Shown one piece after another: positions 5,070 to 17,866 of a stretch of DNA of 29,091 bases. Source of the DNA: a virus. The DNA is taken from IMG/VR virus record IMGVR_UViG_3300004369_000102, positions 1-29,091 of that record; one strand, given 5' to 3'. Both the position numbers and the translations under genes were made by a program. The notes below the pieces were generated by a model. That model did no database searches. It worked only from the letters and a program-made list of their open reading frames with translations, and had not been told where the DNA came from. The number at the start of each line of letters is the position of its first letter. Positions within the stretch are counted from its first letter, which is position 1.

Positions 5070-6104
5070 TTAGTAGTTTTCTAGAAGAACTTCGGTAGAA
5101 GTAATAATCTCAGTTTCTGTAAAGTTTAACGTCATGTTATATGCAACTGGGTCAGCACCTACATAGGTCGCCCAAACAGCATCTGGTGTGTAATTAATAC
5201 TAACACTGGTTAGAACGCATGGTTTGATTCTTGGCAGAGAAGTAATTTCTGTATTGTCATCTCCGTTTCTCCAACCAATTCTAAAAATTTTGGGAACGGT
5301 TAACCAACGATCAGAAAGATTTCCACTATCACCAGCTTCACTATTTTCTTTTAGACCCAACGTAGATGCATAGTCTGGCAGGGCATATGCTCTAAGTGTT
5401 TTAATAATTTGTTTAATGTTCGCAGTTTCGGAAGAATTTCTAGGAACTAACTTCCAGTCAAAAGAAAATGTTCTCATCGTAACACCATTAAATACCTGTT
5501 CGGTATATGGATTCATGATTTTACCAAAACCATTTTGTGTTACTTGAGCAGCACCACCTTGTCCTAATACAGAATCTAAAGCCTTCATTGCAAGACCAAT
5601 TTTTCCTCCACCCGCTAGAGCCTGAACATCTTTTGCGATACCAGCTGCAGACTCTTGGTTGATAATTCCTTTTGCGATTGATGGTAGAATCTTTCCAACC
5701 ACTCCACTACCCTCTTTGTATTGAGGAGAATCACTATAGTTTAGATTATTTGGTACAGGTAAAATTACTGTAGCAATTTTATCTGCATTAGTATTTGTTT
5801 TTTGTGCTTGGATGTTAGAGAGATAAGAAGTACCAGTGGAAATACCAGAATATTGTATTCCAGATTCTCCTTCCTTTGCCTCAGCACCCTCTGTACCAGA
5901 AGTTTGAGTTGCTCCAGTAGCTTGAAATTGTAGTTCTGTTGTTTTGACAAACTCTACAATATCAATCTGCATATAATCATAACCAAGACCAATAGGCCAC
6001 TGCAAATTACCAGTGGCTCCAAGAGTTTGACCACTAACAGCAGTATTAGCTGCAAATTGCCTTAGGTAATTTGGTAGCTCATCGGCGAATGATTTGGACG
6101 CCAT
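5070..6104 (-). CDS. gp48: gp48, baseplate tail-tube junction protein
   Basis: From ATG 6104 the protein has 344 aa (T4 gp48: 364), beginning MASKSFADELPNYLRQFAAN. It contains a Gly/Ala-rich middle (about 150-190) and a C-terminal domain with NPYTEQVFNGVTMRTFSFDW, IKTLRAYALPD and MTLNFTETEII, the tube-like fold that caps the baseplate hub and starts the tail tube. MNPYTEQ.F..v..R.F.F.WklvPR is shared with contractile-tail tube-initiator proteins. The frame extends upstream to 6170, but that would run into gp4 on the other strand and add 22 untypical residues, so 6104 is preferred. It is the first gene of a minus-strand pair with gp53 and lies back to back with gp4, 35 bases away. Confidence 0.85.
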   Translation of the reverse strand: MASKSFADELPNYLRQFAANTAVSGQTLGATGNLQWPIGLGYDYMQIDIVEFVKTTELQFQATGATQTSGTEGAEAKEGESGIQYSGISTGTSYLSNIQAQKTNTNADKIATVILPVPNNLNYSDSPQYKEGSGVVGKILPSIAKGIINQESAAGIAKDVQALAGGGKIGLAMKALDSVLGQGGAAQVTQNGFGKIMNPYTEQVFNGVTMRTFSFDWKLVPRNSSETANIKQIIKTLRAYALPDYASTLGLKENSEAGDSGNLSDRWLTVPKIFRIGWRNGDDNTEITSLPRIKPCVLTSVSINYTPDAVWATYVGADPVAYNMTLNFTETEIITSTEVLLENY

Positions 6105-6139
6105 AAATATTTCTAACCGATCTATTCCTATAGCTATAT

Positions 6140-6577
6140 ATGAACACTCTGAAGGGTAGATATATTCCAAGAAATATTCGTAAGTATAGAGGTGACTATA
6201 AAAATATTATTTACAGATCATCTTGGGAATTAAAGTTCATGAAATACTGTGATTTGAATGATAGTATTCTTGAGTGGGGCAGTGAGGAGGTTGTAATTCC
6301 ATACAGATCTCCACTTGACAATAGAATTCACAGATACTTTGTTGACTTTTATATTAAGGTTGAGGATGTGAATGGTAATATTAAAAGGTATTTGATTGAA
6401 GTCAAACCAAAAAGACAAACAACTCCACCGCCAAAACCAAAGAGACAAACTAAAAAATACATCTATGAAGTAACTGAATACGCAAAGAACCAAGCAAAAT
6501 GGAAAGCAGCATCGGAATTTTGTGAGGACAGACAATGGAACTTCATGATAATCACCGAAGACGAACTTAAGATATGA
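6140..6577 (+). CDS. gp4: gp4 (gp50/65), head completion protein
   Basis: This 145-aa protein (T4: 150 aa) has the characteristic start RGDYKNIIYRSSWELKFM, then EEVVIPYRSPLDNRIHRYF.DFY, EVKP, and NQAKWKAASEFC near the C-terminus. In T4 this protein finishes the packaged head before the tail joins. The E..VIPY, VDFY and LIEVKPK segments resemble the order of a Mrr/PD-(D/E)XK-like endonuclease core (E, D, ExK), a resemblance reported for T4 gp4 relatives; whether cleavage occurs here is not known. A proline- and lysine-rich linker (TPPPKPKRQTKK) sits at about residues 94-105. Its stop overlaps the next start (ATGA). No clear Shine-Dalgarno precedes the ATG. Confidence 0.85.
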   Translation: MNTLKGRYIPRNIRKYRGDYKNIIYRSSWELKFMKYCDLNDSILEWGSEEVVIPYRSPLDNRIHRYFVDFYIKVEDVNGNIKRYLIEVKPKRQTTPPPKPKRQTKKYIYEVTEYAKNQAKWKAASEFCEDRQWNFMIITEDELKI

Positions 6578-7059
6578 GTATCTTTACAGAAATAAAACAG
6601 GCAGCAGGAGATACACCCAGATCATATAACTGGTATCGGGAAAATGTAAGGATGTTTTTCCAGAACAATGATTTATTTGAAGATCTTGCTGGACTAGAAG
6701 AAACAATGACACCTTCCACTGGTGGGTTGTACATGTTTGAGTACAGAGCAGTTTATGCTGAGAGGTTAAATTTTTATGATAGATTTCCGTTAGTATATGT
6801 AACATCTGGCGGAAGTAATTTTAGAGGAATTAATTTACATTACTTGAATCTAAGGGACAGATTAAATGTTGCCTTGAATTTGGAGAATGGAGTTCTAATC
6901 AATGTACCCAAAAGGGCCTATCATAATTACCTAGGTAAGGGTTTAGAAACTCCATTGTTTCTCATAAATAAAGATGATTATAAAACAGCTGCTTTTATGC
7001 CTGTGGAAAACTTCGGGGGTATGAGTAAAACAGCAGTCTGGAACGGAGCAAAACAGTAA
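6574..7059 (+). CDS. Unassigned structural-module protein (161 aa)
   Basis: This protein of 161 aa sits between gp4 and the gp54-like gene, with ATGA overlap at its start and TAATG at its end, so it is clearly part of the late structural operon. It begins with a helix (SYNWYRENVRMFF), then has GGLYMFEYRAVYAERLNFYDRFPLVYV (as pieces: LYMFEY, NFYDRFPLVYV) and FRGINLHYLNLRDR at about 90-103. The combination YDRFPLV plus a G.NLHYL.L..R motif is one I associate with conserved small proteins in head/tail regions of diverse myoviruses, but I cannot assign a gp number. There is no membrane segment or signal peptide. Roles in head-tail joining or DNA-end protection are possible by position only. Confidence 0.75.
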   Translation: MSIFTEIKQAAGDTPRSYNWYRENVRMFFQNNDLFEDLAGLEETMTPSTGGLYMFEYRAVYAERLNFYDRFPLVYVTSGGSNFRGINLHYLNLRDRLNVALNLENGVLINVPKRAYHNYLGKGLETPLFLINKDDYKTAAFMPVENFGGMSKTAVWNGAKQ

Positions 7060-7838
7060 TGGCTGTAACTAATATCACAAATATAACTCAGATAAGCAAC
7101 TACAATGAGTTTAAATCTACTGTAGTCAAGCACGGTTATAGTACTTCAAACTTATATGATATTTTATTTGAACTGCCTGGAAGTGCCGGAGTTTTTAGTG
7201 AGTTCTTAGAAACCTTTAGAGGTGCATCTGAAGATGGTGAAATCACAGTACCAGAAGCACTACAGTTAATGAGAGTGTTTACTACAGAATGTACAATGCC
7301 TGGCGTTACAATGGCAGATAGTGAATATAGAGTTACAAATACTCCTCAATTAAAATATGCATATGGTGCGGTATTCAATGAATTCAATGTAACTTTTCTG
7401 ATGGATTCTAATTCCACAATCAGAAAGATATTTGATAAGTGGACTAATATCATTTATCCATATTCTAGATTTAGGGGCAATACATCTAACACTGGACCAC
7501 TAAGAACTTCATATAAAGATTCTTATATCTCCGATATTATAGTTGTGAAATATGAAAGAGGTCCATCTAGTTTGAGAAACAGATCTAGGGCAGCTAGAAT
7601 TCCTGGAAAGAGAATTGTATTTGATACAGAATCAAATGCTAATTCTTATTTCAGAGAAAATGTTCCTGTTCATGCTGTCAGGATGAAAAATGCTTTTCCA
7701 AAAACAATTGACTCTATGAATCTAACGAGTGGTGAATCTACACTCACACAATTCTCGGTAAGTTTTGAATATGAATCTTTGCAAGTAAGTACACTACCAG
7801 AACTACAATTATTTTCTTTTGAATTGCCCCAAGATTAA
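7059..7838 (+). CDS. Tube-like baseplate protein, probably gp54
   Basis: This 259-aa protein has the tail-tube/tube-initiator style: NLYDILFELP near the N-terminus, CTMPGVTMADSEYRV, then YAYGAVFNEFNVTFLMDSN and a helix IRKIFDKWTNIIYPYS (typical F..F..W..I). A C-terminal strand set STLTQFSVSFEYESL completes the fold. In T4, gp54 (320 aa) sits on gp48 and nucleates the gp19 tube; gp19 itself has the same fold (163 aa). Position beside gp4 and near gp48 and the hub genes favours gp54, but a tube-like paralogue cannot be excluded. The start is coupled to the preceding stop (TAATG). The late promoter at 7842 follows the gene. Confidence 0.7.
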   Translation: MAVTNITNITQISNYNEFKSTVVKHGYSTSNLYDILFELPGSAGVFSEFLETFRGASEDGEITVPEALQLMRVFTTECTMPGVTMADSEYRVTNTPQLKYAYGAVFNEFNVTFLMDSNSTIRKIFDKWTNIIYPYSRFRGNTSNTGPLRTSYKDSYISDIIVVKYERGPSSLRNRSRAARIPGKRIVFDTESNANSYFRENVPVHAVRMKNAFPKTIDSMNLTSGESTLTQFSVSFEYESLQVSTLPELQLFSFELPQD

Positions 7839-7873: not shown

Positions 7874-8587
7874 ATGCCTTTACCAAAGTTAAATGCCCCA
7901 ACATATGAGTTGGAACTTCCTTCGACAGGGAAAAAAATTAAATATCGTCCCTTCCTAGTTAAAGAAGAAAAAATTCTTCTACTTGCAATGGAGTCGGAAG
8001 ATGAAAAACAGATGCAGGAAGCTGTAAAAGAGATCTTAAAAAACTGTATTCTCACTAGAGGAATTAAAGTTGATGATCTTGCTGTTTTTGATATCGAATA
8101 TCTATTCTTAAATATTCGTGGAAAATCTGTCGGTGAAGAAGTACAGTTGAAAATTATTTGTCCTGATGACAAAACAACTGAGGTAGATGTTACTCTTGAT
8201 ATCGAATCTATCAAGGTCACTAAACCAAAAGATCATAGTAATATCATCAAATTGAATAATGATGTTGCAGTTGTGATGAAGTATCCAAGCATGGAAACTT
8301 TCGTGAAGAATAATATTACTGGCGATTCCAATGTAGAATCTATTTTTGATCTCTCCATCGGTTGTATGGATCAAATTGTAGAGGGTGAAGATGTATATGA
8401 GACTAAAAGTTTTTCTAAAAAAGAACTTTTAGAGTTCCTTGAAAGCATGGATAGTATTCAGTTTCAAAAGGTCCAAGAATTTTTTGAAACAATGCCTAAA
8501 TTATCCCATACAATTAACATCACAAACCCTGTAACAGGTGTTGATAGTGAAGTTGTTATTGAGGGCTTGCAGAGTTTTTTCGCGTAG
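7874..8587 (+). CDS. gp26: gp26-like baseplate hub protein (zero-frame product)
   Basis: This 237-aa protein begins MPLPKLNAPTYELELPS.GKKIKYRPFLVKEEKILLLAMES, the hallmark start of the T4 baseplate hub family of gp26/gp51 (T4 gp26: 208 aa). It continues with an ILTRGIKVDDLAVFDIEYLFLNIR segment and a strand-rich middle with a cysteine (ICPDD), and ends with a helical part. It acts in assembly of the central hub. The last codons (TTT TTC GCG TAG) hold a slippery sequence at which a fraction of ribosomes could shift to the -1 frame and extend the protein (see the next entries). A late promoter lies 24 bases upstream. The start ATG is fixed by family homology. Confidence 0.85.
   Translation: MPLPKLNAPTYELELPSTGKKIKYRPFLVKEEKILLLAMESEDEKQMQEAVKEILKNCILTRGIKVDDLAVFDIEYLFLNIRGKSVGEEVQLKIICPDDKTTEVDVTLDIESIKVTKPKDHSNIIKLNNDVAVVMKYPSMETFVKNNITGDSNVESIFDLSIGCMDQIVEGEDVYETKSFSKKELLEFLESMDSIQFQKVQEFFETMPKLSHTINITNPVTGVDSEVVIEGLQSFFA
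8561..8581 (+). promoter_or_regulatory. Probable programmed -1 frameshift site in gp26
   Basis: The heptamer T TTT TTC (8575-8581) is in the correct phase of the gp26 frame for tandem -1 slippage. GAGGG (8561-8565), a Shine-Dalgarno-like stimulator, sits about 10 bases upstream, the spacing known to stimulate E. coli dnaX frameshifting. The zero-frame stop follows two codons later (8585-8587). No strong downstream hairpin is obvious. Confidence 0.65.
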
Positions 8588-8769
8588 CCCTTGCACATGA
8601 ATCTCTAGAAAATTTTTACAGAACAAATTTTGTAATGGTTCAACATCACAAGTGGGACCTAGAACAACTGGAGAATATGATGCCATGGGAACGAGAAATT
8701 TACGTTCAAATGTTGATTGAGTACATTGAAGAAGAGAATGAACGAATCAAAGCACAAAATAATCGATAA
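8581..8769 (+). CDS. gp51: gp51-like C-terminal extension in the -1 frame (frameshift product of gp26)
   Basis: The -1 frame is open from the slippery site to TAA 8767-8769 and encodes 62 codons. After the shift it reads RVALAHESLENFYRTNF, then HHKWDLEQLENMMPWEREIY and a charged helix (LIEYIEEENERIKAQ). HHK....LE.MMPWER.IY is a strongly protein-like motif seen at the C-terminal end of hub-assembly proteins of the gp51/tail-chaperone type. No usable start exists at the frame's beginning; the first ATG (8635) would give only 44 aa, cut through the homologous part, and has no Shine-Dalgarno. The fused product would be about 298 aa. The next gene starts 3 bases after its stop, as expected if this frame is translated. 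Confidence 0.7.
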   Translation, partial: RVALAHESLENFYRTNFVMVQHHKWDLEQLENMMPWEREIYVQMLIEYIEEENERIKAQNNR

Positions 8770-8772
8770 GTA

Positions 8773-10923
8773 ATGGCACTACCAGCAATCGGCGGAGCAC
8801 TAGCAAGAGGACTTTTAGCAGGAGGAACTAGAGCTGCGGCGGCCGGTGCTGCAAAAGAAGTTGCAACTAATGCAGCTAAAAGTGGTATGAAGAATTTTGC
8901 CAAGAACATGGTTGGCAAAACTTCCGATGCTTATAAAGCAAACGTTCAGGGTATCAATCCAGAAACGGGAGAATACCTAACACCAGAAGAAAGAAAGGCA
9001 AGATTTAAAGGTTTTGTTGGAGGTGGTAGCGGTGGTATCGGCGGCGGTGGAGGTACTGACAGACGTTTATCTGCTGGACCATCGCAAGCTGTTGCTGCGT
9101 TACCACCATCCAAGGGATTCAATGCATCTGAAGATTCTCAAGGGGACTCTCAAAATAAAGTAGTAGATCATTTAGCAAAAGTTAAAGAGTATCTAGAAAA
9201 ACTATTAGTATTAGAGAACAAGGCATACGATAGATTACAAAATAGAATTTTAGATACTGCAAGAGAAGAAGAAAGAGACGCTGCATCTGCTGAAGAAGCA
9301 AAACAGGAGACTGGAACTAAAAAAAGAACTAAAAAGAATGAAAATCCATTAGTAAAAGGTGCGAAGAAAAAAGCACAAGGAATCTTTGGGTTCCTGATGG
9401 ATCTTGGGATGAAGTTTATTGGATTCAAAATTCTAGATTGGATTTCCAATCCAGAAAATCAGGAGAAGGTCCAAGGAATTGTTGAATTTTTCCAAGGTGT
9501 AATTAGTTTCGCAACAACTATTGCTAATGCAATTGGTACTGGGTGGAATTGGACGGTAGACACCGTAATAGCTGGCATAGAAGGAGTTAAAACTGTAGTC
9601 AACAGTATAAAAGAATTCTTTACATTTGAATGGTTAGATCTGGATGAAATATTTGCCCAGTTTGATGGGTTTATTTCTTTCTTTACAAAGACCGTACCAG
9701 AACTTGTAAAGAAAATTGTTGATTATGTAAGTCAGATACCAAAAGCTTTTAAAGGAATTGTAGATAAGTTAGTTGGCAGTTTCTTGGGGTGGTTAGGACT
9801 TGCTAAAGAGGATACGGCTGAAATCGAAGAACCAAAGAATAATGTTCCTGTATCAGATTCAGACTTACAAGGTTCAACCCCTCTACCACCAGGACCAGAA
9901 CCATCACAGAAAGATAAACCAAAAGCTACAACACCAGAAGCTGGAGAAGAAAATCCGAAGATGTCAAAAGGTGGTGCATTAAAGGGTCCAAGTCATTCTA
10001 AGGGCGGTGTTGATATTAATGCTGAGGGTGGTGAATATGTTTTGAATAAGAAAGTAGTATCTGCAATTGGAACTGCTGCACTCGACAGACTGAACTTTGG
10101 TATGTTCCCCAACAAACATAATGGGCCTGGATATGGTGCTGGTGGACACGTTGTTACTTCTTCTATGGGTAACAGATCGTTTGCCCTGTCTCCTGGTATG
10201 CACATGGGTGTTGATATCGGAACTGGTGTGGGTGAAAAATTACAAGCATTTAATGATGGTGTTGTGGAAGGTGCTGGATATGATGGTGGTTATGGTAACT
10301 ATGTAAGTTGGATTGATAATAAAACTGGACTTGGAAACTTCTATGGTCATATGAATCAACCAGCAAGAGTTAAACCTGGACAAAAAGTTTCCAAGGGAAC
10401 TGTCCTAGGTTACACTGGAAACACTGGTAGATCTAGTGGACCACACTTACACTGGGAGGTTGCCAAAAATCCAGCAGATACTGGAAGATCAAAGTCAAAC
10501 GTATTGTCTAGAATTAATCCACTGAGTAAGTATAGTAAAGAAGCTCCTTTTGGTGGAACCACAACTGCAGATTCTTCTTCTATTGCTGAAACTGAAAAGA
10601 CAGATTTGGATTCTAGTTACAGCGGGGAAGAAAATAAACAAGACACCACAACTACAGAAAGTGGTTTCCAACTCCCTAGTATTTCCGATGCTTTAGTTAC
10701 ATTTAGTAAACTGATGGGTGGTATGTCTGGTGAAGAATTGGATAAATCTCAAACAGAAAATAATAAACTCACATCAGCTGATGAGTCACCACTCAGTTCT
10801 GTATTTACAAAAGAAACTGCACCAAACTTCACAACCGCTTTTGATGAGAATACATTTGGTAATTATTCTCTCGGTGATAATGTTCCAGATTTATCACACA
10901 TATTCTACCCTGTTAATCTCTGA
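8773..10923 (+). CDS. Baseplate hub or tape-measure-like protein with C-terminal M23 peptidase domain
   Basis: This 716-aa protein begins with an Ala/Gly-rich stretch, followed by a charged coiled-coil (about 135-185), then a hydrophobic helical part with LDWISNPENQ (221-230). A proline-rich linker (about 345-390) leads to KGPSHSKGGVDINAEGGEYV near 405-425, a motif familiar from tail tape-measure and other tail proteins. Residues 470-570 are a lysostaphin-type M23 metallopeptidase: H477-x3-D481, YGH at 524-526, and HLH at 558-560 (zinc ligands H477, D481, H560). It could cut peptidoglycan cross-links during entry. By position it takes the place of T4 gp28/gp29. The C-terminal 140 residues are Ser/Thr-rich. 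The TGATG overlap couples it to the next gene, which shares the LDWIS-PENQ core. Confidence 0.8.
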   Translation: MALPAIGGALARGLLAGGTRAAAAGAAKEVATNAAKSGMKNFAKNMVGKTSDAYKANVQGINPETGEYLTPEERKARFKGFVGGGSGGIGGGGGTDRRLSAGPSQAVAALPPSKGFNASEDSQGDSQNKVVDHLAKVKEYLEKLLVLENKAYDRLQNRILDTAREEERDAASAEEAKQETGTKKRTKKNENPLVKGAKKKAQGIFGFLMDLGMKFIGFKILDWISNPENQEKVQGIVEFFQGVISFATTIANAIGTGWNWTVDTVIAGIEGVKTVVNSIKEFFTFEWLDLDEIFAQFDGFISFFTKTVPELVKKIVDYVSQIPKAFKGIVDKLVGSFLGWLGLAKEDTAEIEEPKNNVPVSDSDLQGSTPLPPGPEPSQKDKPKATTPEAGEENPKMSKGGALKGPSHSKGGVDINAEGGEYVLNKKVVSAIGTAALDRLNFGMFPNKHNGPGYGAGGHVVTSSMGNRSFALSPGMHMGVDIGTGVGEKLQAFNDGVVEGAGYDGGYGNYVSWIDNKTGLGNFYGHMNQPARVKPGQKVSKGTVLGYTGNTGRSSGPHLHWEVAKNPADTGRSKSNVLSRINPLSKYSKEAPFGGTTTADSSSIAETEKTDLDSSYSGEENKQDTTTTESGFQLPSISDALVTFSKLMGGMSGEELDKSQTENNKLTSADESPLSSVFTKETAPNFTTAFDENTFGNYSLGDNVPDLSHIFYPVNL

Positions 10924-13031
10924 TGGCAATCACAAGCGCTATAGTTCCATTTAAAGGAAACACTTCATCTGCTGTTATTAAACCACAACAGCAGATGACT
11001 TCTGCTATTGTTAAAGTAGAGAAACTAAAGGATGAATCAACTGAAGATCCAGCAAGAGAGATGCGAAAAAATGCATTGATGTTGTTGAGAAAGAGACAAC
11101 AAAGAGATAGACTGGAACAAAAATATTTTAAACTATTAGACCAAACTAAAGCCAGACAGAAAGCAAGAGAAGAAGAAAAGAAACAAGAATCAACTAGTTT
11201 TTTAACAAAGGCTGGTAGTGGTGTCAAGAAACAGGCAGAAAAACTTGGTGGTAATTTATTCAGTGCTATCGGTGATATCCTTGGTTTCTTGGCACTAGAT
11301 TGGATATCAAAACCAGAAAATCAAGCAACTCTTACTGGAATTGTAGAAGGTGTAAAACATATTTTTGCTTTTGTTGATTGGTGGGTTACTGGTTCTGTTG
11401 ATAATTTATTAACTGGATTCTCACAATTAGTTGGTAAAGATTCTACTCTTTTAGAAAGAGTCATTGGATTCTTTAAGGTAGCAGCTGGTGTTTTAGGTCT
11501 TAGATATTTCTTAAAACCATGGAAATTATTTACTGATGTCCAGAAACTTATTAAAACTCAGGGACTCAGAAAGTTAAATATATTTTTTAAGAAGTGGCAG
11601 AAGAAAGGAATAAAAGATGCACTAAAGTTTGCCTTCCCAAAAATTTCTTCTATTGTCTCTAAAGTTTTTAACGGAATTAAAGGAGCATTTTCAAAAGCAA
11701 GCGGTGGAATACTTGGTAAGATTGGTAATGCAATGTTAAGGGTTTTAAAAAAACCTGGATTTGAAGTTGTAAAGAAAGCAGTTGGAGCACTAGTAAAACC
11801 AGCACTTAAGGTTGTAAAAAAAATTCCATTTATCGGTCCACTGATTTCGTTTGGTGTGAGTATGGCATTTGGAGTGCCAATTGATAAAGCTATTTTTAGA
11901 GCAATTGGTTCTGGTCTTGGTTCTTGGTTGGGTGGTGGATTAGGTTCTCTTATATTCCCTGGTGTCGGTACTTTTATTGGTGGTGTGATTGGATCTTTTA
12001 TTGGTGAATGGTTGGGTGATAGAGTCTACGACATGATGCAAAATAAAAGTGCTAAGCCACCAAACGCAGAAGAAGCAAGAAGAATGGAAGCTATTAAATT
12101 GAAGGCAGAGTTATCAAAAAATAAAAATTTAAGTGAATCTGATATCGTTAAAGAAGTTGCAAAGAAAATGAAAATTAGTGAGGATGAAGCAAAAAAATTA
12201 TTAAGTAAGACACCATTACAAGCAGATCCAAAAGAACCAAAAGGAACTCCAACTATTGCTCCAGTTGCTGGTGGTGCTAAAGGTATATTGGCATTTATTG
12301 CTAAAGGTGAAGGTGGATATAATTCCATGAACCAAGGTACTAAAGGAAATCGTATCGTTGGTAGTACAGGAGATTCTAGTTCTAAAATTGGTAAAAAATT
12401 AACAGACCTCACTATTGAAGACATTATAAAAAGACAAGATTACTTGATGAATAAGAGTAATCCACAAGAAGGAAACTATGGTTTGTTTGCTGTAGGAAGA
12501 TATCAATTTATTCCAAGTACATTCAAGTCAATTGTCAGGGATACTGGAATAGATCCAAAAACAAAGTTCACTCCAGATGTTCAAGATAAACTTGGAATGG
12601 CTTTGTTGAGAAGAGATGCTCCAGCAGCTGCAGATTATATTGACGGGAAAAGTACGGATAGAGTTAGAGCTCTAACATCACTGGCAAAAGTTTGGGCATC
12701 AATTCCTCTACCAAATGGAAACTCTGCTTATGGTAGTGGTAATAGAGCAGGACATACACCACAAGAAGTTTATGCTGCACTTGATGCCGCTAGATCTAAG
12801 GGTGGTGGTTTACCATCATCCAGCATAAGAAAACAAATACCACAAAGATCTTCTTCAATGTCAAGTAGAAGTATGGATATGGTACAGAGCAAGAGATCTA
12901 GAAATAGAAAATCTAATATAATAGTAATCAATAACGGCGGACAGACAATTGCAAGTTATACTAATTTCAATGCTGTCCAAGCGCCTAGAGGGCTAAATAA
13001 TAGAAAAGTAAGCCATAAGAGAGGGCTCTGA
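10923..13031 (+). CDS. Baseplate hub or tape-measure-like protein with lysozyme/transglycosylase-like domain
   Basis: This 702-aa protein starts with a charged coiled-coil (about 40-90: RKRQQRDRLEQKY, REEEKKQE), then a helical hydrophobic core with LDWISKPENQ (125-134), nearly the same as in the preceding protein. Glycine-rich hydrophobic segments at about 310-370 (GSGLGSWLGGGLGSLIFPG) could be membrane-active, as in tape-measure proteins. Residues about 450-620 form a lysozyme-like domain: FIAKGEGGYNS with candidate catalytic E463, LT..DIIKRQ, then AVGRYQFIPSTF at about 523-534, the ordering of phage lytic transglycosylase or muramidase domains. The Ser/Arg-rich end (RSSSMSSRS) may be flexible. 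It is coupled to both neighbours by TGATG overlaps. Confidence 0.75.
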   Translation: MAITSAIVPFKGNTSSAVIKPQQQMTSAIVKVEKLKDESTEDPAREMRKNALMLLRKRQQRDRLEQKYFKLLDQTKARQKAREEEKKQESTSFLTKAGSGVKKQAEKLGGNLFSAIGDILGFLALDWISKPENQATLTGIVEGVKHIFAFVDWWVTGSVDNLLTGFSQLVGKDSTLLERVIGFFKVAAGVLGLRYFLKPWKLFTDVQKLIKTQGLRKLNIFFKKWQKKGIKDALKFAFPKISSIVSKVFNGIKGAFSKASGGILGKIGNAMLRVLKKPGFEVVKKAVGALVKPALKVVKKIPFIGPLISFGVSMAFGVPIDKAIFRAIGSGLGSWLGGGLGSLIFPGVGTFIGGVIGSFIGEWLGDRVYDMMQNKSAKPPNAEEARRMEAIKLKAELSKNKNLSESDIVKEVAKKMKISEDEAKKLLSKTPLQADPKEPKGTPTIAPVAGGAKGILAFIAKGEGGYNSMNQGTKGNRIVGSTGDSSSKIGKKLTDLTIEDIIKRQDYLMNKSNPQEGNYGLFAVGRYQFIPSTFKSIVRDTGIDPKTKFTPDVQDKLGMALLRRDAPAAADYIDGKSTDRVRALTSLAKVWASIPLPNGNSAYGSGNRAGHTPQEVYAALDAARSKGGGLPSSSIRKQIPQRSSSMSSRSMDMVQSKRSRNRKSNIIVINNGGQTIASYTNFNAVQAPRGLNNRKVSHKRGL

Positions 13032-17353: not shown

Positions 17354-17380
17354 GGGCCAAAATTGACTATGGCCCTTTTT
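17354..17380 (+). terminator. Rho-independent terminator directly before tRNA-Leu
   Basis: GGGCC (17354-17358) pairs with GGCCC (17371-17375) around a 12-base loop, followed by five T (17376-17380). The T run ends on the base before the tRNA. The stem is short but GC-only, so it could terminate the 67-aa gene's transcript, or instead mark the 5' processing side of the tRNA. Confidence 0.6.
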
Positions 17381-17465
17381 GGGACGGTGGTGGAATTGGT
17401 AGACACACCAGACTTAAAATCTGTCGAGCATCGTGCTTGTGAGGGTTCAAGTCCCTCTCGTCCTA
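17381..17465 (+). tRNA. tRNA-Leu(UAA)
   Basis: A full class II tRNA can be folded: acceptor arm GGGACGG (17381-17387) with TCGTCCT (17458-17464) and discriminator A, D-arm with GGTAGAC, anticodon loop CTTAAAA (17413-17419) with anticodon TAA (17415-17417), long variable arm with AGCA/TGCT, and T-arm GAGGG-TTCAAGT-CCCTC. The long variable arm and TAA anticodon identify leucine (UUA codons). UUA is used often in this AT-rich genome, so the tRNA may supplement the host. No CCA is encoded. No integrase is nearby, so there is no sign that it serves as an attachment site. Confidence 0.95.
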
Positions 17466-17471
17466 TAAATA
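17464..17471 (+). promoter_or_regulatory. T4-type late promoter overlapping the tRNA 3' end
   Basis: TATAAATA begins on the last base pair of the tRNA acceptor stem and includes its discriminator base. It lies 20 bases before the ATG at 17492 and would drive the 124-aa gene late in infection. Confidence 0.7.
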
Positions 17472-17491
17472 AATTTGAATTTGATTTTGCT

Positions 17492-17866
17492 ATGTCTGAC
17501 AAAAATAAACTACCTGTAGAATTTCCTGGTGTATCTTTCAATCTTTCTGTTGAACAAGAACAAAAATTGGAAGAGTGGTTAGTAGAACAAAATACTTTAA
17601 TTGTTAAAGAACAGTTAGAAAAATCGGAAATGAACGAAACCCAACGTGAGATTCAAAAGAAATCTCTTGAGCTCGGGTTTCCTATTCCAATTTATGATCT
17701 AAATGTAGGATATTATAGTATCAGTTTTACACCAGTAGCCTGGGGAAATAGAATTTACGTTCATAATCACTTTACAGGAAAATCATTTAGATTATTCGAT
17801 AAAGAAGATTTTGATAATCAAACTTCAACCAGTGGATCTACCGATTCCGACAGGATTGAAGAATAA
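17492..17866 (+). CDS. Hypothetical protein (124 aa) expressed from a late promoter
   Basis: From ATG 17492 the protein has 124 aa (MSDKNKLPVEFPGVSFNLS...). The first two thirds are a charged helical region (QEQKLEEWLVEQN, KEQLEKSEMNETQREIQKK); the last third is strand-rich (YYSISFTPVAWGNRIYVHNHFTGKSFRLFD) with an acidic, Ser/Thr-rich tail. The open frame upstream of this ATG runs through the tRNA and reads as spurious protein, so that extension is rejected. The exact TATAAATA 20 bases upstream points to late expression, as for virion or assembly proteins. I do not recognise its family. Confidence 0.7.
   Translation: MSDKNKLPVEFPGVSFNLSVEQEQKLEEWLVEQNTLIVKEQLEKSEMNETQREIQKKSLELGFPIPIYDLNVGYYSISFTPVAWGNRIYVHNHFTGKSFRLFDKEDFDNQTSTSGSTDSDRIEE

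Follow-up and report, generated by a model that had tools for sequence, protein, structure and literature searches.

A conserved T TTT TTC heptamer at the end of gene 26 suggests that cyanophages and other T4-like phages make a tail assembly chaperone in two lengths by -1 frameshifting

The closest described systems are those in which a tail assembly chaperone (TAC) exists in a short and a long form. In phage lambda, the short gpG and the -1-frameshifted long gpGT are encoded in the interval from the tail tube gene to the tape measure gene (Xu, Hendrix and Duda 2004), and our locus can be likened to it by layout. In T4-like phages, TAC genes were identified by Vladimirov, Gautam and Davidson 2022 (Virology 566:9, doi 10.1016/j.virol.2021.11.003), as cited in PMC10885494 and PMC12846349. 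According to the first of these citing papers, some T4-like phages have short and fused-long TAC genes, and according to the second, T4-like TAC-N genes carry poly-T -1 signals. As far as this work is related there, its gp26/gp51 TACs share their protein family with our locus (PF12322, phrog_150) and likewise comprise a short TAC-N and a long TAC-NC. The TAC of phage Adele and the Vandenendeviridae/Andersonviridae (PMC12846349) also resembles our locus: its TAC-N gene carries a poly-T -1 site at its 3′ end, and the ORF that follows is usually entered as a hypothetical gene of its own; its motif, however, is GTTTTT and it is found in other phage families, whereas the site described here is T TTT TTC. 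Direct literature searches on frameshifting in gp26/gp51 or in cyanophages returned nothing relevant, and the prior work was reached via citations. The lambda-type trick is therefore already known and, by the account of the citing papers, two-length TACs in T4-like phages, including the two-gene form, are published. What we add is quantitative: a heptamer that is invariant in the relatives examined except Vibrio phage D503, evidence that the extension is under coding selection, the spacing of a GAGGG element and examples of misannotation.

We analysed a 29,091-nucleotide stretch of viral DNA (IMG/VR record IMGVR_UViG_3300004369_000102, hereafter the window), the relevant features of which are collected in Table 1. 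The zero frame of gp26 ends in GAG GGC TTG CAG AGT TTT TTC GCG TAG, with the heptamer in phase as a preliminary description of this DNA had stated; the same description placed GAGGG about 10 bases upstream, and the exact spacing is 9 nt. The predicted products are a short protein of 237 aa and a -1 fusion of 298 aa, whose predicted junction peptide runs across ...GLQSFFRVALAHESLENFYR, and both these lengths and the 62 open codons of the -1 frame agree with the earlier reading. In the window, the opening 54 nt of the -1 frame contain no ATG, GTG or TTG, and the earliest ATG (8635-8637) lies within the conserved domain, so that the earlier claim of a second frame lacking its own start at the junction is true of the window. 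Among the window genes that were checked, T TTT TTC is the sole in-phase A/T homopolymer slippery-type heptamer near a 3′ end, and it is the only X XXY YYZ on the + strand near the checked gene ends that has a -1 ORF of at least 60 codons behind it. Shuffled 186-mers with the composition of the -1 ORF are open at a frequency of 0.006. The slippery sequence of lambda is G GGA AAG and differs from the T TTT TTC of this locus. Taken alone, the window provides moderate evidence for frameshifting; the comparison of relatives provides sequence evidence that we regard as overwhelming.

Table 1. Positions in the window of the gp26/gp51 elements and of the neighbouring tail genes
Feature	Positions	Strand	Remarks
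Tail-tube-like protein, upstream neighbour	7059..7838	+	PF23849 Phage_TTP_2, E 1.1e-18; phrog_45 tail tube, E 1.3e-29
gp26-like ORF, 237 aa, predicted TAC-N (short chaperone)	7874..8587	+	Zero-frame stop TAG at 8585-8587
Shine-Dalgarno-like GAGGG, likely frameshift stimulator	8561..8565	+	Heptamer begins 9 nt downstream
In-phase slippery heptamer T TTT TTC	8575..8581	+	
-1 frame ORF, 62 codons (8581-8766) plus TAA (8767-8769)	8581..8769	+	“gp51”, predicted C-terminal extension of TAC-NC
Tape-measure-like protein with M23 peptidase domain, downstream neighbour	8773..10923	+	PF01551
Second large protein with glycine-zipper and lysozyme-like regions	10923..13031	+	PF13488; phrog_1200 endolysin; phrog_167/973/794 tape measure

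For this comparison we used 80 IMG/VR loci together with the record of the window, and a wider set obtained from four queries, from which 62 representatives at 80% identity and 218 usable loci were drawn; loci were gathered without selecting for the heptamer. The in-phase T TTT TTC is kept in all 81 close loci, 10 nt from the gp26 stop (7 nt in two). Every locus of the wider set has an in-phase T TTT TT(C/T/G), including 62 of 62 representatives, a set that extends to loci sharing about 25% identity with the phiM9 query, and T TTT TTN is in phase in 218/218 usable relatives. The cyanophages examined are invariant at this site, which is the alignment result that the preliminary description had called for. 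The heptamer is also present in KVP40-type phages, Ceceduovirus, Menderavirus, Busanvirus, Pootjesviridae and Desulfovibrio phage 7757; individual phages bearing it are Vibrio V09 (KVP40-type), Aeromonas AS-szw, Stenotrophomonas BUCT608, Acidovorax ACP17, Agrobacterium OLIVR5 and Atu_ph04, and the freshwater cyanophages BUCT-ZZ01 and S-CRM01. The variant in Sinorhizobium phiM9 is T TTT TTG. In three loci (L216, L217 and L219) the distance from the slippery run to the zero-frame stop is 31 nt, against 7-10 nt elsewhere, and the tail of the short product is longer.

Locus pairs share phylogeny, and the control was therefore a count of parsimony steps on the tree. Codon 235, the first Phe of the heptamer, is TTT in 218/218 loci and shows 0 steps, with no synonymous change anywhere on the tree, against 12-37 steps for other conserved Phe columns of the zero frame, away from the site, and 8 for the one in the -1 frame; codon 236 shows five. 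Codon 235 is preceded by T in every one of the 218 loci, and it ranks first for synonymous conservation among 291 columns (excess synonymous conservation 1.0). Collectively, these comparisons indicate that the in-phase heptamer is conserved beyond the need of the amino acids that it encodes.

Next, we consider the -1 frame itself. It is free of stops in 218/218 loci, where the other two frames average 5.5-6.6 stops, and dN/dS across these loci is about 0.05 in the -1 frame versus 1.0 in the zero frame, pointing to a real coding sequence under strong purifying selection. The -1 peptide has a match in phrog_634 (“baseplate hub assembly catalyst”, E 1.5e-28) and is collinear with the C-terminus of T4 gp51, so that the gp51-like tail proposed earlier is indeed there; no Pfam family was found for this piece. 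Furthermore, the peptide matches positions 231-276 of the 282 positions of phrog_150 (E 4.8e-7), of which gp26 covers positions 5-232, and the family profile therefore runs across the junction.

A conserved -1 frame could also be a separate small gene, gp51, whose translation begins past the gp26 stop through reinitiation or coupling. GenBank records treat it in this way, with a separate gp51 just past the gp26 stop or overlapping gp26 (P-SSM2, S-PM2 and others), while other public records leave an unannotated gap of about 180 nt in its place. In 24 of the 62 representatives a -1-frame ATG is found at +9 nt, and in 7 at +3. The position of the early start, however, shifts among representatives (0, 3, 6, 9, 12, 18, 24 or none) where the heptamer stays fixed, and 14 of the 62 (the window and 13 others) have no ATG, GTG or TTG in the first 30 nt of the frame. 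Moreover, a Shine-Dalgarno motif at start-codon distance was found in 0 of the 182 loci that have an early ATG. Among the translated peptides of the representatives the Met at +9 interchanges with Leu, as expected of an internal hydrophobic residue, and in T4 gp51 the same domain is fused to a gp26-like domain. Of the earlier expectation that relatives would have no start in the second frame, the part that stands is that no usable start is conserved; the part that does not is the absence of early in-frame ATGs, which are common. The exception to the heptamer is Vibrio phage D503, the one relative examined that lacks it. Since TAATG stands at the gp26 stop there instead, D503 may use a separate start for its gp51-like piece. 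In this locus (L246, 2932-3672 onward) the TAATG overlaps the gp26 stop and the -1 frame still codes for a gp51-like extension. For the locus as a whole we judge a separately translated gp51 to be very unlikely, with the qualification that a stand-alone gp51 may be made besides the fusion in lineages with an early ATG, since in many relatives an ATG follows soon after the site.

The region upstream of the heptamer bears on ribosomal slippage. GAGGG is found 9 nt upstream in 172/218 relatives and 8 nt upstream in 4 (176/218 together). The codon for Glu230 is GAG in 172 of the 196 sequences that encode Glu there, and GAG makes up 30% of all Glu codons in these genes. We consider that GAGGG, which can pair with 16S rRNA, is probably a frameshift stimulator. 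The E. coli dnaX frameshift has a Shine-Dalgarno stimulator, which the GAGGG of this locus resembles. No conserved downstream RNA structure was found over 24 cyanophage sequences. The window RNA just past the site (8582-8694) folds better than shuffles (z -2.81), a fold that is not conserved in relatives.

A homopolymeric T tract, present in every heptamer-bearing relative, could in principle let RNA polymerase slip on the T6-T7 run and restore the long frame in the transcript. Against this, conservation tracks codon phase (T TTT TTN, with the preceding T in 218/218), and the GAGGG spacing is near-fixed at 9 nt, both as expected for ribosomal slippage. Most relatives, moreover, have no more than 6 T in the run, which is short for transcriptional slippage; we find this explanation highly improbable. 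Homopolymers are error-prone and the window is metagenomic, but a sequencing or assembly error hiding one continuous frame is refuted as the source of the split by the same interruption in the isolates P-SSM2, S-PM2, P-RSM1, P-RSM6, ACG-2014d, KVP40-type phages and phiM9, as well as in every IMG/VR locus that carries this type of gp26, and we give it practically no credence.

As for the identity of the protein, residues 9-237 of gp26 match PF12322 T4_baseplate over positions 2-219 of 219 (E 3.5e-72). An AF2 model of the window gp26 (pLDDT 86.6) has as its top three PDB matches 3FGX (Z 8.0), 2OB9 (Z 7.8) and 3KLU (Z 7.1), the next row being at 5.2; the match is confined to residues 1-96 at an rmsd of about 4 angstrom, and a Z near 8 is by itself middling. 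All three are called tail assembly chaperone structures (PMC9603447). For 2OB9, HK97 gp13, the match spans residues 1-88 of gp26 (84 residues, rmsd 4.0 angstrom), so that the folds are alike in the N-terminal part of gp26, which differs in having about 150 further residues unmatched to any TAC. Searching solved structures by sequence with both profiles gave no meaningful match, and no TAC structure came up when a T4-type gp51 model was compared with the PDB (the best match, at Z 4.7, was unrelated), although this protein may still have a TAC fold. T4 gp26 and gp51 have been listed as hub assembly chaperones, gp51 being missing from the final particle (PMC3004832). The gene order was found to run from a tail-tube-like gene through gp26/51 to a tape-measure-like gene, the location expected of a TAC. 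Because the top three fold rows are all TACs and the gene order is of this kind, the best reading of gp26/gp51 appears to be a tail assembly chaperone pair, TAC-N and TAC-NC, rather than a hub component. Accordingly, the hub-assembly protein in two lengths of the preliminary description keeps its two-length coding capacity and is better called a tail assembly chaperone, given the HK97 fold match and the tape-measure synteny, while the proposed mirroring of lambda G/GT holds, with short and long chaperone frames between tube-like and tape-measure-like genes.

The tape-measure-like protein encoded just downstream is the probable client of the chaperone; for its residues 220-588, the best 15 tblastn records listed are all annotated as tape measure proteins. 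The product of the gene that follows it is possibly also tape-measure-related. Two consecutive large proteins (8773-13031) thus show tape-measure-like matches, and tape measure function may for this reason be split over two genes. Elsewhere in the window, a gp4-like head closure gene (6140-6577) lies on the + strand like gp26, and on the strand opposite to gp26 in P-SSM2 and S-PM2; its start overlaps an oppositely oriented ORF (5070-6170). A tRNA-Leu with a TAA anticodon lies at 17380-17466 and is covered by a called ORF (17363-17866) whose 5′ part is probably spurious.

We consider it very likely that “gp26/gp51” is a TAC-N and TAC-NC pair made by -1 programmed frameshifting, because of the heptamer conservation, the coding selection in the -1 frame, the collinearity with T4 gp51, the TAC-like predicted fold and the synteny; from these we infer the slippage itself, its efficiency, the role of GAGGG and the chaperone function. 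Under this proposal, most ribosomes would stop at the TAG at 8585 and release the 237-aa TAC-N (“gp26”). A minority, while T TTT TTC occupies their P and A sites, would slip back by one base from TTT TTC to TTT TTT, probably aided by GAGGG, which can pair with 16S rRNA, and would read 62 more codons to give the 298-aa TAC-NC (“gp26-gp51”). By analogy with lambda G/GT, both forms would together cover the tape measure protein, whose gene follows directly, and bring in subunits of the tail tube.

T4 offers a different arrangement. Its genes 26 and 51 are on opposite strands, and each of the two proteins matches the whole of PF12322. T4 gp51 (249 aa) is a single unbroken ORF that aligns collinearly with the cyanophage fusion, its extension included (blastp; phrog_150 positions 13-280 of 282), whereas T4 gp26 (208 aa) ends where the cyanophage short product ends, at the GL..FF point, with GAG TTC TTT as the codons there and the heptamer absent. 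T4 gp26 is the short paralogue of gp51, and T4 serves as a natural control for the frameshift. Searches with tblastn retrieved 1339 phage records for T4 gp51, of the full-length type and mostly enterobacterial, and 673 for the window gp26, mostly from cyanophages and Vibrio phages and at one place each. T4 and the Tevenvirinae examined thus have two paralogous genes without the heptamer; in the window and in other cyanophages, a single gene carries it. T4 gp26 (L089) also matches weakly the gp28 family phrog_1140 (E 0.00094), a hint of a third relative.

We lean slightly towards the view that the frameshift form is ancestral in the T4 superfamily, and that Tevenvirinae replaced it by duplication and in-frame fusion, losing the slippery site. 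If so, the T4 hub “catalyst” gp51, long a puzzle, would simply be the long form made permanent, and slippage would still be needed by nearly all relatives that have a single gene (about 670 phage records), while some lineages such as Vibrio D503 may have a third solution in a separately started C-terminal piece.

Taken together, these results would correct the annotation of marine T4-like phages: where their records show a “gp51” entry or leave some 180 nt unannotated, the sequence most likely encodes the last part of a long chaperone reached by frameshifting. One gene with slippage versus two genes provides a natural contrast for asking why phages need two chaperone lengths, and the role of T4 gp51 becomes testable in a laboratory phage.
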